This document shows, one piece after another, positions 22,772 to 35,185 of a DNA stretch of 64,000 nt. Origin of the DNA: Winogradskyella jejuensis (lineage in GTDB: Bacteria > Bacteroidota > Bacteroidia > Flavobacteriales > Flavobacteriaceae); assembly GCF_900129745.1 (NCBI RefSeq), contig NZ_FQWS01000001.1, forward strand, positions 1,550,001-1,614,000. Reading direction: 5' to 3'. Position 1 is the stretch's first letter. Each line of letters starts with the position of its first letter. The notes under the pieces are model-generated. The model searched no databases and was not told where the DNA came from. It worked only from the letters and a program-made list of their open reading frames with translations. Made by a program: the position numbers and the translations under genes.

Positions 22772-22825
22772 AATTTTATTATTTTATCTTAAGATTTGAC
22801 GTAATTAAGCAGGAAGTATAACACT

Positions 22826-22878
22826 GTCTTTAGCATTTTTTTCCAGAGGTTGCAATCAGTCAAATCATTCCTCTATTT
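22826..22878 (-). ncRNA. SAM-II riboswitch aptamer upstream of metK
   Basis: Read on the minus strand: AGAGG, then TGATTTGACTGATTGCAA, then CCTCT, then a purine-rich stretch ending ATGCTAAAG. This reproduces the SAM-II layout: P1 stem (AGAGG/CCTCT), the conserved loop resembling TGATTTAACCGTATTGCAA, and the GCTAAA 3' strand of the pseudoknot. The aptamer starts at the expected transcript 5' end and ends 54 nt before the metK ATG. Confidence 0.85.
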
Positions 22879-22888
22879 TTATCAGGTG

Positions 22889-22896: not shown

Positions 22897-23039
22897 CACA
22901 TTTCTAGCAAATTAAAAAGCTATAATTCTTAAAACGCTAGAGATTTTAATTCTTTAATATCAAATTTTCTTAAAAATATTTGTTTTTAAATGTTTTAAGA
23001 TGAATATTTGTTCTATCAAAGTTCAAAACTTTATTGAAT

Positions 23040-23160
23040 GTTATCAAGAAAGGTGGAGGGATTAGACCCGCTGAAACCTTAGCAACCCTTAGACTTACTA
23101 AGAAGGTGCTAAATTCTACTAGAAGTTACGAATCATTTCTCGTAATTCTAGATAGATAAC
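23040..23160 (+). ncRNA. SAM-I (S-box) riboswitch aptamer upstream of metH
   Basis: All S-box elements are present in order. P1 is GTTATC (23040-23045) pairing with GATAAC (23155-23160). Then come AAGAAAGGTGGAGGGA, CCCGCTGAAACC, GCAACC, a P3 hairpin CTTAG/CTAAG, the conserved AAGGTGCTAAATTC, and a P4 hairpin TAGAAgTTACGA / TCGTAAtTCTA. It precedes the metH-metH-metF operon on the same strand, so SAM should repress methionine synthesis. Confidence 0.95.
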
Positions 23161-23165
23161 CCAAA

Positions 23166-29368: not shown

Positions 29369-30108
29369 AAAAAATAATATATATATGTTGTTGCTTTATT
29401 CTTTTTGCTTGCAATAGTGAGAGTGTTTCAGATTGTTTTCAAACAGCTGGGAACATCATTCAAGAAGAAGTGACTGTAAGTAATTTTGAACGTATTCTTG
29501 TAAATCGCGATATAGAACTTATTATAAAAGAAGGGCCACAAAACGTAGTTATAGAAACAGGAGATAATTTGATTAATGATGTGACAGCTGAAGTTATAGG
29601 GAATCAACTGATACTAACGGATAATAACTCATGTAACTATGTACGTGATTTTGGAATTACTAAAATATATGTAACTGCACCAAATTTAAACGAGATTAGA
29701 TGCTCTACACAATTTGAAATTAAATCTGAGGGTATACTTAGTTTTGATAATTTAGATTTAGTTTCAGAAGACTTTTTTGACTCAAACAGTTTTCCTATCG
29801 GAGATTTTAGATTAGAATTAGATGTTGAAGATTTGCAAATCACCTCAAATAATATATCATTTTTCTATCTGTCTGGAAATGCTGAAAATGTAAATATTAA
29901 TTTTGTAGGTGGTAATGGTCGTTTTGAAGGTGAGAACCTCATAGCACAAAACATAACAATTTTTCATCGGGGTACTAATGATATGCTAGTAAATCCGCAA
30001 CAATCTTTGACGGGTCAAATTCTTTCCACTGGAAATGTAATTTCTTTTACTCAACCGCCAATGGTTGATGTACAAGAAGTGTTTAATGGAAGGCTGATTT
30101 TTAACTAG
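29365..30108 (+). CDS. GIN-domain (DUF2807) lipoprotein
   Basis: A 247-residue lipoprotein with its lipobox at Cys16 (FILFAC). The mature part is a right-handed beta-helix-like head GIN domain: VSNFERILVNRDIELIIKEGP, followed by repeated strands (NLNEIRCSTQFEIKSEG, NVNINFVGGNGRFEGENL). GIN proteins are envelope-associated in Bacteroidota, of unknown function. Coupled to the PagL-like gene by a 4-nt overlap. Its 3' end overlaps that of gldA on the other strand by 8 bp. Confidence 0.85.
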   Translation: MKKIIYICCCFILFACNSESVSDCFQTAGNIIQEEVTVSNFERILVNRDIELIIKEGPQNVVIETGDNLINDVTAEVIGNQLILTDNNSCNYVRDFGITKIYVTAPNLNEIRCSTQFEIKSEGILSFDNLDLVSEDFFDSNSFPIGDFRLELDVEDLQITSNNISFFYLSGNAENVNINFVGGNGRFEGENLIAQNITIFHRGTNDMLVNPQQSLTGQILSTGNVISFTQPPMVDVQEVFNGRLIFN

Positions 30109-30994
30109 TCAACTCTCTAAATAAGCTTTCCAAACTCGCATTTTTCTGATTAAGCTGAAGTATTTTTAATTCATTATCATGCGCAAAATCAAATACATAA
30201 GAGCGCATATCTTCGGTTGTTGAAAATGTGATTTCATAAGTAAAGTCGTGCGTATTTTTTACAGATTTTACTTTTGGCAACTTTAATAAAAACGTGTCTT
30301 CCACACGATAATCAAACTCTACAACCACGATTTGCTCTTGTCCATCTCGTAAATCGTCAAGATATTTATCAGCAACAATTTCTCCCTTATTAATAATAAT
30401 CACGCGGTCGCACATGGCTTCAACCTCTTGCATAATGTGCGTGGATAGAAATACAGTTTTCTCCTTACCTATTGTTTTTATAAGGTTTCTAATGTCTACC
30501 AATTGGTTTGGGTCTAATCCAGTAGTAGGTTCGTCTAATATTAAAACGTCTGGGTTGTGCAAAAGTGCATTCGCTAGACCAACACGTTGTTTGTAACCTT
30601 TAGAAAGCTGCCCTATTTTTTTATGAGCTTCGGGTGTAAGTCCTGTCATTTCTATAACCGCTTCAATCCGCTTTTTTTTCACGTTATAAACATCTGCATT
30701 AAATTTTAGATATTCTCTAACATACAAATCGGTATATAGCGGATTGTGTTCGGGTAAATAACCGACAGATTGTTGTACTTCTTTTTTGTTTTTATCGATG
30801 TCATGACCATTGACTTTTGCTTCACCTTCCGAAGGGTTGATATAAGTCGTTAGTATTTTCATCATTGTAGATTTCCCTGCGCCATTAGGACCAAGAAATC
30901 CAACAATTTCTGCAGAATTTACTGAAAAAGAAATGGAATTTAAGGCTTTCTGTTCGCCATATAATTTGGTAATATCTTTTACTTCTATCGACAT
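30101..30994 (-). CDS. gldA: Gliding motility ABC transporter ATP-binding protein GldA
   Basis: A 297-residue ABC ATPase. Walker A is GPNGAGKST, the signature LSKGYKQR, Walker B VLILDEPTTGLDP, and the switch His is in STHIMQEVE. The C-terminal region after the ATPase (VVEFDYRVEDTFLLKLPKV) matches GldA. GldA works with GldF and GldG in gliding of Flavobacterium; neither is in this window, and gldB and gldC lie 22 kb away, as is usual for dispersed gld genes. On the minus strand a -7-like TAttTTTA lies upstream at 31010-31017. Confidence 0.93.
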   Translation of the reverse strand: MSIEVKDITKLYGEQKALNSISFSVNSAEIVGFLGPNGAGKSTMMKILTTYINPSEGEAKVNGHDIDKNKKEVQQSVGYLPEHNPLYTDLYVREYLKFNADVYNVKKKRIEAVIEMTGLTPEAHKKIGQLSKGYKQRVGLANALLHNPDVLILDEPTTGLDPNQLVDIRNLIKTIGKEKTVFLSTHIMQEVEAMCDRVIIINKGEIVADKYLDDLRDGQEQIVVVEFDYRVEDTFLLKLPKVKSVKNTHDFTYEITFSTTEDMRSYVFDFAHDNELKILQLNQKNASLESLFRELTS

Positions 30995-31064
30995 CTAAAA
31001 ATATTTTAGTAAAAATAAGTATTAAAAGAGAAAACGTAAGCTGCAAAAAAGTATTTCAACAATT

Positions 31065-31093
31065 TTGTTTTTTTAAATAATTAGTTACTTTAG
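31065..31093 (+). promoter_or_regulatory. Promoter of the aromatic amino acid operon
   Basis: TTG (31065-31067), an 18-nt spacer, then TActTTAG (31086-31093, one mismatch to TAnnTTTG). The expected transcript start is about 15 nt before the leader peptide ATG. Confidence 0.6.
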
Positions 31094-31111
31094 CCAATGT
31101 TATAATAAACA

Positions 31112-31177
31112 ATGAATACAAACGCAACATATTACAACTGGTTTTACTACTTTTTTAGCAAAAGAAGCGAGGCTTAG
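31112..31177 (+). CDS. Aromatic-rich attenuation leader peptide
   Basis: A 21-residue ORF between the promoter and pheA whose core reads YYNWFYYFF (residues 7-15): eight of nine residues are Tyr, Trp or Phe, all three end products of the operon it precedes. The ORF ends SKRSEA-stop, and the last codons (CGAGGCTT, 31168-31175) can pair with the 5' arm of the downstream terminator. The composition, position and RNA pairing are those of a ribosome-mediated attenuator. I know of no described flavobacterial example, though one may exist. Confidence 0.85.
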   Translation: MNTNATYYNWFYYFFSKRSEA

Positions 31178-31206
31178 TATTTAATATTTAAAACATTTAA
31201 ATTAAA

Positions 31207-31236
31207 AAGTCTCGATGAAAATCGAGATTTTTTTTT
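31207..31236 (+). terminator. Attenuator terminator before pheA, with competing antiterminator
   Basis: TCTCGAT / ATCGAGA with a GAAA tetraloop, then nine T residues: a strong intrinsic terminator 23 nt before pheA. Its 5' arm lies within AAGTCTCG (31207-31214), which can instead pair with CGAGGCTT (31168-31175) over 8 bp including one G-U pair. A ribosome finishing the leader would cover CGAGGCTT and let the terminator form; one stalled at the aromatic codons would leave it free. Confidence 0.85.
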
Positions 31237-31258
31237 ACCATAAATTGAAAATAGAATT

Positions 31259-32089
31259 TTGAAATCAGTTTTTAACATAGCCATACAAGGCATAAAAGGA
31301 TCATTCCACCATAGCGTTGCTGAAAACTATTTTAATAATCCTCAGTGTTTTGAAGAATGTATGACTTTTGATGTGTTGGTAGATAGTCTTATAAACGGAA
31401 AAACTGAGGCAGCCGTTATGGCTTTAGAGAATTCTATTGCAGGCTCAATAATTCCTAATTACGCATTAATAGATGTCAACGATTTAATGATTGTAGGAGA
31501 GTATTATTTAGATATTCAGCATCATCTCATGGCTTTGCCAAATCAATCTATTGAGGAGATTAAGGAAGTACATTCGCATCCTATGGCTCTGTTACAGTGC
31601 AAAGAATTTTTTAAATCTTACCCTGAAATTAAGTTGGTAGAAGCTAAGGATACGGCAGATGTAGCTAAACAAATTTCAGAAAGACAACTCCAAGGCATTG
31701 CGGCAATTGCGAGTGAGACGGCTTCAAAATTATATGAGCTAGACATTTTACAAAAGAGCATTCAGACTATTAAGCATAATGAAACCCGTTTTGTAATTGT
31801 AAAAAGAGATAGTGATACGTTAGAAAGTGAGATTAATAAAGCTTCTCTCAAGTTTGAACTTGACCATAAAAGAGGAAGTTTAGCAGCCATACTTAATGTG
31901 CTGAGCGATTGCAAACTCAACCTTACCAAAATTCAGTCTTTACCAAAAATTAATACACCTTGGAAATATGCTTTTTTTATAGATGTTACCTTTGATGTAT
32001 ATTCAGATTTTGATAAAGCAAAGTCTATTGTAAATATTATGGCAGAAAATTTTAAAATTTTAGGCGAATATAAAAACGCAAAATCATGA
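31259..32089 (+). CDS. pheA: Prephenate dehydratase
   Basis: A 276-residue monofunctional prephenate dehydratase, converting prephenate to phenylpyruvate for Phe synthesis. The N-terminal AIQGIKGSFHH, the ALENSIAGSI motif, and the substrate motif NETRFVIV (Thr-Arg-Phe) mark the catalytic domain. An ACT domain (LDHKRGSLAAILNVLSDCKLNLTKIQSLP) follows, expected to bind Phe for feedback inhibition. The start is TTG at 31259; no in-frame ATG fits the family N-terminus. It is the first gene behind the attenuator and overlaps the aminotransferase gene by 4 nt. Confidence 0.95.
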   Translation: MKSVFNIAIQGIKGSFHHSVAENYFNNPQCFEECMTFDVLVDSLINGKTEAAVMALENSIAGSIIPNYALIDVNDLMIVGEYYLDIQHHLMALPNQSIEEIKEVHSHPMALLQCKEFFKSYPEIKLVEAKDTADVAKQISERQLQGIAAIASETASKLYELDILQKSIQTIKHNETRFVIVKRDSDTLESEINKASLKFELDHKRGSLAAILNVLSDCKLNLTKIQSLPKINTPWKYAFFIDVTFDVYSDFDKAKSIVNIMAENFKILGEYKNAKS

Positions 32090-33231
32090 TAGAAGTAGCA
32101 GACCGACTAAAACACGTTGAGGAATATTACTTCTCAAAGAAATTAAAGGAGGTGGCTTTTTTAAAGTCTCAAGGCAAGCCAATCATCAATTTAGGTATAG
32201 GTAGTCCAGATTTAGATCCACCACTAAAAGCAATAATGGCTTTAGAGGAAAGTCTTAACCATGCCGGTGCTCATAAATATCAAAGTTACCAAGGTACTCC
32301 TGAGTTTAGAGATGCTGTAGCAGAATTTTATAAGTCACACTACAATGTTAACCTAAGTGCCAAGACAGAAGTTTTACCACTTATGGGAAGCAAAGAAGGC
32401 GTGATGCATATTTCTATGGCTTTTTTAAACCCTGGTGATGGAGTGTTAATTCCCAACCCTGGTTATCCTACGTATTCTAGTGTTACAAAGTTGCTACAAG
32501 CAGAGCCATTGTATTACGATTTGAAAGAAGCTAATAATTGGCTTCCAGATTTTATCGCTTTAGAGCGTATGGACTTAAGTAAGGTAAAGCTAATGTGGAT
32601 TAATTACCCAAATATGCCAACTGGTACTAATGCACCTCATAAATTTTATGACGATATTATTGCTTTTGGTAAACGCCATGATATTCTCATAGTCAATGAC
32701 AATCCATACAGTTTTATACTAAACGATAAGCCAAAAAGTATTTTGCAATACAGGCAAGCCAAAGATGTTTGTTTAGAACTAAATTCAATTAGTAAAACCT
32801 TTAATATGGCAGGCTGGCGAGCAGGAATGGTTGTAGGTAACTACGATTTTGTTAATGCTGTTTTAAAAGTGAAAAGTAATATGGATTCAGGAATGTTCTA
32901 CGGCATTCAGAAGGGAGCGGTAGAAGCACTAAAGAGTTCAGAAATGTGGTTTGAGAGTTTAAACAGTATCTATCGTAAAAGACGCCAATTGGTTTGGGAA
33001 TTAGCTGAAGCTCTCAATTGCACATATAATGAAGATGCCGCAGGTTTATTCGTCTGGGCAAAATTACCAGAACATGTAAAGAGTGAAGAATTTACAGATT
33101 TAGCATTAAAAGAACATAGCATATTTATAGCTCCTGGGACAGTATTTGGAACAAATGGTGAAGGTTACGTGCGGTTTTCAATTTGTGAAGAAGAAGAAAT
33201 TATTAAAGAAGCAATAGCACGAGTTAAGTAG
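32086..33231 (+). CDS. Class I/II aminotransferase, probably aromatic
   Basis: A 381-residue PLP-dependent fold-type I aminotransferase. The sequence INYPNMPTGTNA corresponds to the NYPNNPTG motif, with Met for the second Asn. The PLP Lys is in SISKTFNMAGWRAG, and a substrate-carboxylate Arg lies in the C-terminal GYVRFSI. Sitting between prephenate dehydratase and prephenate dehydrogenase, it most likely transaminates phenylpyruvate and hydroxyphenylpyruvate to Phe and Tyr. Its start overlaps pheA (ATGA) and its stop is one base before tyrA. Confidence 0.9.
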   Translation: MIEVADRLKHVEEYYFSKKLKEVAFLKSQGKPIINLGIGSPDLDPPLKAIMALEESLNHAGAHKYQSYQGTPEFRDAVAEFYKSHYNVNLSAKTEVLPLMGSKEGVMHISMAFLNPGDGVLIPNPGYPTYSSVTKLLQAEPLYYDLKEANNWLPDFIALERMDLSKVKLMWINYPNMPTGTNAPHKFYDDIIAFGKRHDILIVNDNPYSFILNDKPKSILQYRQAKDVCLELNSISKTFNMAGWRAGMVVGNYDFVNAVLKVKSNMDSGMFYGIQKGAVEALKSSEMWFESLNSIYRKRRQLVWELAEALNCTYNEDAAGLFVWAKLPEHVKSEEFTDLALKEHSIFIAPGTVFGTNGEGYVRFSICEEEEIIKEAIARVK

Positions 33232-33232
33232 G

Positions 33233-34084
33233 ATGAAAAATGTTGTAGTCATTGGAGTTGGATTAATTGGCGGAAGTTTTGCTTTAGATATAAAGAATAA
33301 GTTTCCTGATGTAACTATTTATGGTATAGATTCAAATAAAGAACACCTAGAAGAAGCGATTAGTCTTGGAGTTATTGATGCTGAAATATCGATAAATCAG
33401 TTATCTAAAGTAGATTTGGTTATCATTGCCATTCCTGTTGATGCTACATTAGTGTTACTTCCAGAAGTATTAGATAACGTTGCGGGAAATACAATTGTTT
33501 TTGATGTAGGCTCAACAAAAGAAGATATATGTCTGAAGGTAAAAAATCATCCTAATCGTAGAAATTATCTAGCAGTGCACCCAATTGCTGGTACAGAATT
33601 TTCGGGACCAAGTGCGGCAATAAAAGGTTTGTTTCAAAATAAAACGAACATCATTTGCGAAGTAGAAGAAACAGCCTTTAAGCTTCAAGAGAAAGCTCTA
33701 GCACTTTTTTCAGACTTAGGAATGCGAATTCGTTACATGAATCCAAAAGCCCACGACAAGCACATTGCTTATGTCTCTCATTTATCGCATATTAGTTCGT
33801 TTATGCTAGGTAAAACTGTCATTGAAAAAGAAAAAAACGAGCGCGATATTTTTGATATGGCTGGTAGTGGTTTTGAGAGTACGGTGCGTTTAGCAAAAAG
33901 TTCACCAGCAATGTGGACACCAATTTTTAAGCAGAATAAAACCAATGTTATTGAAACCTTGGACGAATATATTAACAATTTAAAACATTTTAAAAGCTTG
34001 ATGGAAAAAGACGATTTTCAATCGGTCTATCAAGAAATGGAATCGACAAATTATATAAAGCAAATTCTTAACGGAATTAAATAG
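33233..34084 (+). CDS. tyrA: Prephenate dehydrogenase
   Basis: A 283-residue prephenate dehydrogenase making 4-hydroxyphenylpyruvate for Tyr synthesis. The Rossmann start VIGVGLIGGSFALD binds NAD(P). The catalytic His is in AVHPIAGTEFSGP, and HIAYVSHLSHISS continues the helical dimer domain. There is no ACT domain, so feedback would depend on other steps. It starts one base after the aminotransferase stop, and the DAHP synthase gene follows after 18 nt. Confidence 0.94.
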   Translation: MKNVVVIGVGLIGGSFALDIKNKFPDVTIYGIDSNKEHLEEAISLGVIDAEISINQLSKVDLVIIAIPVDATLVLLPEVLDNVAGNTIVFDVGSTKEDICLKVKNHPNRRNYLAVHPIAGTEFSGPSAAIKGLFQNKTNIICEVEETAFKLQEKALALFSDLGMRIRYMNPKAHDKHIAYVSHLSHISSFMLGKTVIEKEKNERDIFDMAGSGFESTVRLAKSSPAMWTPIFKQNKTNVIETLDEYINNLKHFKSLMEKDDFQSVYQEMESTNYIKQILNGIK

Positions 34085-34102: not shown

Positions 34103-35185
34103 ATGGAAAATAAAAAAGAACTTAGAAACTGGTTAGATGCCTTTGGATTAGACCATCCATTGGTTATCGCTGGTCCATGTAGTGCTGAAACAGAAGAGCA
34201 AGTCTTAAAAATAGCACATCAATTAAAAGATAGTGATGCTACAGTATTTAGAGCAGGTATTTGGAAACCAAGAACACGACCAGGAAACTTTGAAGGTGTA
34301 GGTGCTCTTGGACTTAAATGGATGCAGCGCGCCAAAGAAGAAACAGGAATGCTTACCACTACTGAGGTAGCTAATGCCAATCATGTAGAATTAGCTTTAA
34401 AGCATGATATTGATATTTTATGGATTGGAGCCAGAACAACCGTCAGTCCATTTATCGTTCAAGATATTGCCGATGCACTTAAAGGAACAGACAAACCTGT
34501 TTTGATAAAAAATCCAGTAAATCCAGATTTGGCATTATGGTTAGGCGCCGTAGAGCGTTTTTACACTGCGGATGTTAAGAATTTAGGGGTGATTCATAGA
34601 GGTTTCTCAACATACGAAAAAACAAGATACCGTAACAATCCAGAATGGCAAGTTGCTGTAGATTTACAAAATCGCTTTCCAGATTTACCATTGATTTTAG
34701 ACCCATCCCATATTGCGGGTCGAAGAGATATTATTTTTGAATTAAGCCAGACTGCTTTAGACTTAAATTACGATGGTTTAATGATAGAAACACATCACAA
34801 TCCAGATAAAGCATGGAGTGATGCAGCACAACAAATCACACCAGAAACACTTATAAAATACACAGAAGACTTACGTATACGTAAAGAAGTGGGTGAGGCT
34901 GCAGAGTTTAAAAATAAGATAAACACCTTGCGTACCCAGATAGATGTGGTTGACCATCAACTTATTGAAATGTTAGGGAAACGTATGAACATTGCAGATG
35001 ATATAGGGCAATTGAAGAAAGACCACAATGTTTCGGTATTACAATCTAAACGATGGAATGAGATTTTGGGTAAAATGATTCTTCAAGGCGAAGAAAAGAA
35101 CCTTAGCGAGGAGTTTATTCTAAGAGTCTTTAAAGCCATTCACCAAGAGTCTATTAATCATCAAGAAAAGATTATTAATAATTAG
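34103..35185 (+). CDS. Bifunctional DAHP synthase / chorismate mutase
   Basis: A 360-residue fusion. Residues 1-265 are a class I-beta-like DAHP synthase (AGPCSAETEEQ, FRAGIWKPRTRPG, GARTT, DPSHIAGRRD with metal ligands, ETHHNPDKAWSD), which commits PEP and erythrose-4-phosphate to the shikimate route. Residues 270-360 are an AroQ chorismate mutase (LRTQIDVVDHQLIEML, KRMNIADDIGQLK). One protein thus starts the pathway and channels chorismate to prephenate, the substrate of pheA and tyrA in the same operon. The fused mutase is known to help feedback control in related enzymes. Confidence 0.95.
   Translation: MENKKELRNWLDAFGLDHPLVIAGPCSAETEEQVLKIAHQLKDSDATVFRAGIWKPRTRPGNFEGVGALGLKWMQRAKEETGMLTTTEVANANHVELALKHDIDILWIGARTTVSPFIVQDIADALKGTDKPVLIKNPVNPDLALWLGAVERFYTADVKNLGVIHRGFSTYEKTRYRNNPEWQVAVDLQNRFPDLPLILDPSHIAGRRDIIFELSQTALDLNYDGLMIETHHNPDKAWSDAAQQITPETLIKYTEDLRIRKEVGEAAEFKNKINTLRTQIDVVDHQLIEMLGKRMNIADDIGQLKKDHNVSVLQSKRWNEILGKMILQGEEKNLSEEFILRVFKAIHQESINHQEKIINN

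Follow-up and report, generated by a model that had tools for sequence, protein, structure and literature searches.

A putative leader-peptide attenuator with Phe and Tyr codons upstream of the pheA operon in Winogradskyella jejuensis and many other Bacteroidia

The region upstream of pheA in Winogradskyella jejuensis raises the question of how a single operon serving both phenylalanine and tyrosine is controlled. Within the window, the whole stretch of 64,000 nt of DNA that was analysed, a 21-codon ORF dominated by aromatic codons is placed between a promoter and an intrinsic terminator. An earlier note on this DNA had interpreted the arrangement as classical ribosome-mediated attenuation, and that interpretation is supported here by the ORF, the competing RNA arms, their geometry and the operon downstream. 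We consider it very likely that transcription of the operon is attenuated in this classical manner, with the charging of Phe-tRNA and Tyr-tRNA being sensed.

Leader ORF, competing arms and operon at the pheA locus

The leader peptide carries eight aromatic amino acids among its residues 7–15 (YYNWFYYFF). ORFs were ranked by an aromatic-run score (+1 for F, Y or W and −1 otherwise, best segment) and the leader ORF, with a score of 7, is the sole ORF reaching at least 6 among 3,445 ORFs of 6–50 aa in the window (1,671 and 1,774 on the two strands). Shuffled upstream regions of relatives (n = 600) gave a maximum score of 5, reached three times, and the opposite strand of the real upstream regions gave a score of at least 5 in 4 of 119 cases with a maximum of 6. 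The leader is confirmed as a genuine feature and not a product of chance.

Near the end of the leader ORF, segment 2 (CGAGGCTT) is able to pair with segment 3 (AAGTCTCG) across eight positions, one of them a G–U, and AAGTCTCG overlaps the 5' arm of the terminator hairpin (Table 1). A generic terminator scan of 30500–32500 returned one terminator-like site (shuffle mean 1.1), which is the leader hairpin on the minus strand only. The stem on the plus strand is able to extend into the U run, and we think this is why the generic scan missed the plus-strand hairpin.

The −33 TTG element is a known part of the Bacteroidota promoter. For the −7 element, a passage of PMC9723704 gives the consensus TAnnTTTG. 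A motif of the form TTG-N16-21-TAnnTT[TA]G, relaxed after inspection of the window, was searched for in the 70 nt ahead of the leader start codon. It was present in 130 of 180 loci, whereas 50 rounds of shuffling gave 1.1 loci on average and never more than 4.

Table 1. Features of the pheA leader region and operon, in window coordinates
Feature	Position	Strand	Remarks
gldA	30101..30994	−	divergent from the pheA operon
Promoter TTG-N18-TACTTTAG (Bacteroidota type)	31065..31093	+	TTG 31065–31067, 18 nt, TACTTTAG 31086–31093
Leader peptide ORF MNTNATYYNWFYYFFSKRSEA	31112..31177	+	ATG 31112 to TAG 31177, 21 codons
Control codons Y Y N W F Y Y F F	31130..31156	+	in the ORF frame
Segment 2 (antiterminator 5' arm) CGAGGCTT	31168..31175	+	overlaps the final leader codons and base 1 of the stop codon
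Segment 3 AAGTCTCG	31207..31214	+	common to antiterminator and terminator
Intrinsic terminator	31210..31236	+	TCTCGAT (31210–31216), GAAA, ATCGAGA (31221–31227), T9 (31228–31236)
pheA, prephenate dehydratase	31259..32089	+	PF00800, E 6.7e-55; TTG start likely
Class I/II aminotransferase	32086..33231	+	PF00155, E 1.1e-58
tyrA, prephenate dehydrogenase	33233..34084	+	PF02153; NF006307 above its cut-off
DAHP synthase/chorismate mutase fusion	34103..35185	+	PF00793 and PF01817

Domain matches confirmed that cognate biosynthetic genes follow the leader, as expected of an operon said to serve both Phe and Tyr. The window's pheA is 88% identical to that of W. wandonensis (L031), and the nearest named relatives are Winogradskyella. 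When the operon content of 40 genomes, hand-picked from 99 loci, was compared, DAHP synthase/chorismate mutase was encoded within about 4.5 kb after pheA in all 40 and tyrA in 32. Within about 4.5 kb of pheA, the aminotransferase was not found in five of the 40 and tyrA in eight.

Conservation of the leader and matched change of its arms

The near group consisted of 81 loci, 80 from named genomes and the window's own. A homologous leader ORF followed by a GTCTC-type terminator was present in 80 of the 81, with ATG as the start codon in 79 and GTG in one. The sole miss (L079) has a contig end inside the ORF, although its terminator and the tail of the ORF are still present, and was left out of the 80 near leaders. 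Six duplicate upstream regions were dropped from one step of the comparison and are counted under their own identifiers in the tally of 80. The core of the peptide is TYYNWFYFFF-like in the near group, with synonymous and conservative changes.

The earlier note had suggested looking for conserved aromatic codons and covarying stems, and this expectation was borne out for the codons and, by two-sided changes, for the terminator, and not for the near-group antiterminator. Terminator pairs were formed in 99.3% of cells and two pairs (3 cells) had changed on both sides. For the near-group antiterminator, covariation did not exceed that of shuffles: 88.0% of cells were paired, a level equalled in all 500 of 500 shuffles, and none of its pairs had changed on both sides. 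The outermost C–G pair of the antiterminator was lost in 7 of 80 loci, its last two U–A positions were lost in 36 and 34 of 80, and its inner core varies through G–U changes only. Little variation is expected of an arm that serves two partners, and this by itself is not covariation.

An RNA model (R1) built from the 80 near loci matched, at E ≤ 0.01, 121 of 149 genomes of the family (the window's own included) and 25 of 148 of the phylum and, among the matches listed, many were seen by eye to lie directly upstream of pheA. Weak R1 matches include chance ones, and the DNA upstream of pheA was therefore examined in 120 genomes of other genera. An aromatic leader (score of at least 5) was present in 102 of these 120 regions (75 of 81 at the family level, 5 of 7 at the order level and 22 of 32 at the class level) and a terminator in 99 of the 102. 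The family sample comprises 81 of 130 pheA-bearing genomes, which may overlap the 80 named near loci; the rest, the window's genome aside, were judged by R1 alone. In a separate set of 39 genomes, 32 were taken as class loci and two as family loci, with G230, G040, G369 and G445 uncounted.

Six family regions fell short of the threshold. One (G107) is cut by a contig end and yet has an R1 match, and another (G139) has an R1 match 340–469 nt upstream, partly outside the stretch taken. G072 (score 4, with a strong R1 match) and G123 (score 3) seem to carry true leaders that score under the threshold, and G082 and G094 had no leader in the upstream stretch taken. The two order-level misses are G050, with a leader-like ORF of score 3, and G047, where no leader was present in the upstream region. 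At the class level 10 of 32 loci had no aromatic leader upstream of pheA, and the leader is therefore not universal. In seven of these ten (L295, L297, L301, L303, L306, L315 and L317) about 1.5 kb on each side was rescanned on both strands and gave no aromatic leader, the best score being 4; the remaining three are G467, G312 and G459.

Unusual arrangements were seen at a few loci. Three class-level loci (L259, L264 and L268) have an aromatic leader ORF before pheA and no terminator by scan, and perhaps control there is exerted at translation or through a terminator of different form. In L284 (G072) and L228 (G187) the distance from the leader end to pheA is about 575 and 965 nt, compared with roughly 80–100 nt elsewhere, and an insertion may separate the leader from the operon.

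Beyond the near group, the two arms have changed together. Across the 99 loci with leader and terminator, complementarity of the leader-proximal arm to its own partner was 17.3, compared with 13.25 ± 0.24 when terminator arms were swapped between genomes (0 of 2,000 permutations as high), although the own-partner score may be inflated to some extent by the base composition that the arms of one genome have in common. Per-locus shuffles keep base composition and are free of this fault; here the leader-proximal arm outdid 95% of its own shuffles in pairing to the terminator arm in 79 of 99 loci (65 family, 5 order and 9 class), with only 9 of the 19 class loci that have leader and terminator passing this single-locus test. 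Arms rewritten together include CGAGAC/GTCTCG, CGGGACT/AGTCCCG, CCGGGTT/AACCCGG and GAGCGGTC/GACCGCTC, and GCCGGGACT-type arms likewise face their own complement, with G–U pairs in some loci. Antiterminator and terminator are mutually exclusive structures built around a common arm. Both the leader ORF before pheA and the competing arms, as first noticed in the window, are conserved well outside the genus, as are the operon and the geometry described below.

Ribosome geometry, the amino acids probably sensed and alternative explanations

The leading edge of a ribosome was taken to lie 12 nt past the start of the A-site codon. In 79 of the 80 near loci the GAG core of the antiterminator begins at +15 nt, counted from the start of the last aromatic codon, and by the same strict count it is at +18 nt in the one other (L048). 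The position of the stop codon ranges from 9 nt upstream to 15 nt downstream of the antiterminator core in the 80 near loci and, as a result, a terminating ribosome would overlap the antiterminator arm in all 80; it would do so in 96 of 99 loci of other genera. With this 12-nt footprint, a ribosome at the last Phe codon of the window's leader (F15) would expose the RNA from 31167 onwards, just one base ahead of segment 2. When the RNA was folded in this state, with the last arm yet to emerge, the antiterminator had a P of 0.98, and with the ribosome at the stop codon and the same footprint segment 2 is covered and the terminator alone remains. The folding proposed as a check in the earlier note agrees with its claim that a stalled ribosome frees the arm; masking of the arm by a ribosome at the stop follows from the footprint assumed. 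The antiterminator P exceeded 0.5 in 79 of 80 near loci (L107 being the other, at 0.43) and in 95 of the 99 loci of other genera, where pairing was measured more loosely. With no ribosome, P was again 0.98 in the window, but this does not hold generally: P exceeded 0.5 in 55 of the 80 near loci and in 71 of the other 99. As to a protector 1:2 hairpin, which would force termination of an untranslated leader, the window's upstream hairpin abuts segment 2 without overlapping it. On this geometry, and with an assumed footprint, stalling is predicted to free the antiterminator arm and the stop position to mask it.

Equilibrium folding of the complete RNA was rejected as a means of discriminating between ribosome states, as the terminator is preferred in every one of them and only folding before the last arm emerges discriminates. 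Given that the terminator wins at equilibrium, the model needs co-transcriptional kinetics.

Translation of the leader, stalling, termination and the physiological response would be linked as follows. RNA polymerase would start just upstream of the 21-codon leader ORF. With Phe-tRNA and Tyr-tRNA plentiful, the ribosome would proceed to the stop codon and cover CGAGGCTT, leaving AAGTCTCG to pair with the downstream arm, so that the terminator would form and transcription would stop before pheA. With either aminoacyl-tRNA scarce, the ribosome would stall on an aromatic codon and leave CGAGGCTT free to pair with AAGTCTCG as it emerges; the terminator would be pre-empted and the operon transcribed. 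The release point is preceded by every aromatic codon of the run and a stall on any of them should therefore free segment 2, and the codons would in this way follow OR-logic.

The earlier note had also suggested a response to several aromatic amino acids. Codons for both Phe and Tyr are present in every leader counted, namely all 80 near leaders and all 99 leaders of other genera that have a terminator, and this supports sensing of Phe and Tyr. For Trp the suggestion is uncertain, with Trp codons in 75 of 80 near leaders and 59 of 99 leaders of other genera, at a near-fixed place in close relatives, and with a separate leader ORF, MQTNKTWWWNFTNETFVK (WWW), before trpE in the source genome (upstream region L291, contig G000:C4). 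As the enzyme of entry into the pathway, DAHP synthase, is encoded in the operon, the leader could be read as an OR-gate for Phe, Tyr and Trp in which shortage of any one alone opens the operon. We regard this wider reading as rather doubtful; if true, one tiny ORF would do the work of the enterobacterial repressors TyrR and TrpR across much of the class Bacteroidia.

Two explanations for the codon content by gene content were discarded. Operon content does not account for the Trp codons, DAHP synthase/chorismate mutase being downstream in 20 of 20 loci with Trp codons and in 20 of 20 without. Tyr codons do not track an adjacent tyrA, and leaders keep them where tyrA (8 of 40) or the aminotransferase (5 of 40) was not found.

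The strong conservation of the core YYNWFYFFF among close relatives would also be expected if the nascent peptide itself, and not the supply of codons, jammed the ribosome in response to a ligand or to folding. Leaders of other genera vary widely in sequence (for example MTKQYFWNGFYFYFFFKRSTGLF, MNTFFTYFNFWFFYFGKKVRVVL and MNRFSFTYYFYYFYFSRVKAGVCM) while aromatic content and position persist, and peptide arrest is considered very improbable. Still less probable is control of the terminator by a metabolite-binding RNA or a T-box: riboswitches, too, usually have such a terminator and competing arm as their expression platform, but no Rfam family matched at its gathering score, neither a riboswitch nor a T-box was among 11 matches at E ≤ 10 in 31000–31300, and the ORF takes most of the space between promoter and terminator. 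A chance ORF, or one for a small functional protein, ahead of a mere terminator has an equally low probability: the hairpin is indeed terminator-like on both strands, but the ORF is unique in the window and conserved at fixed spacing to a matching arm, and a constitutive terminator needs no matched upstream arm. Attenuation through the charging of Phe-tRNA and Tyr-tRNA remains the preferred reading.

Relation to known attenuators and regulatory elements

In enterobacteria, the gene for prephenate dehydratase is preceded by the pheA leader, with leader codons known for Phe only and with alternative hairpins. The present system is alike in its working and differs in combining Phe and Tyr codons ahead of one operon for both amino acids; the Rfam Phe-leader model gave no match at E ≤ 10 in 31000–31300. 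Some attenuators of Bacteroidetes/Chlorobi were reportedly covered by Vitreschak et al. in 2004.

Within the same phylum, Bacteroid-trp (Rfam RF01692), which a passage of PMC2864571 lists among its motifs, likewise consists of a short ORF with control codons and a terminator before an aromatic biosynthesis gene, but its codons are for Trp and its operon is trp. The Bacteroid-trp model did not match the pheA leaders of the window and four relatives at its gathering score, nor that of the window at E ≤ 10. Parts of PMC4833913 and PMC7366714 treat leader genes of Bacteroidota in general, and not that of pheA.

The 5' region of pheA in Bacteroidota was flagged in 2005 and again in 2021; neither of these papers, nor Bacteroid-trp, is cited in the earlier note. 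A section of the 2005 TyrA paper (PMC1173090) mentions a putative attenuator, taken from Merino's database, before pheA>hisHb>aroAIb-aroQ>tyrA of Bacteroides thetaiotaomicron, an equivalent operon in the same phylum, and in that section neither a leader peptide nor an amino-acid specificity is given. Portions of PMC9723704 (2021) describe a structured element in the 5' region of the Flavobacterium psychrophilum pheA, conserved across other Flavobacteriaceae genera and without Rfam hits, and report 'strong clues' for leader-peptide attenuation before amino-acid operons. The gene is the same, and in those portions of the text an aromatic leader is not mentioned, though the overlap with the present work may be larger in the full paper. 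Among the matches listed in a search of open-access literature, as far as their excerpts go, no description of a Phe/Tyr leader peptide before a Bacteroidota pheA was found. The type of attenuator is already known; what is new is the explicit mechanism with Phe and Tyr together and its reach into the class Bacteroidia. It offers a concrete, testable mechanism for the 5' element noted earlier before pheA in Flavobacteriaceae. A probable attenuator bispecific for Phe plus Tyr has been maintained in many genera of Bacteroidia even as its two arms changed in concert.

The trpE leader of the source genome matches RF01692 with 52.3 bits (gathering score 49). A further leader ORF, MKSIQLHHHLHTCPQAS (HHHLH), precedes hisG (upstream region L290, contig G000:C9) and had no Rfam match at gathering score. 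Together with these trp and his leaders, the pheA leader suggests that attenuation is a main mode of amino-acid control in the group. A hairpin with a T run was recognised by eye after both the trpE and the hisG leader.

Two different classes of SAM riboswitch were also observed back to back in the window. A SAM-II riboswitch at 22820–22879 on the minus strand precedes metK, and a SAM (S box) riboswitch at 23038–23162 on the plus strand precedes methionine synthase genes and a metF-like gene, all gene names here being taken from the translations.
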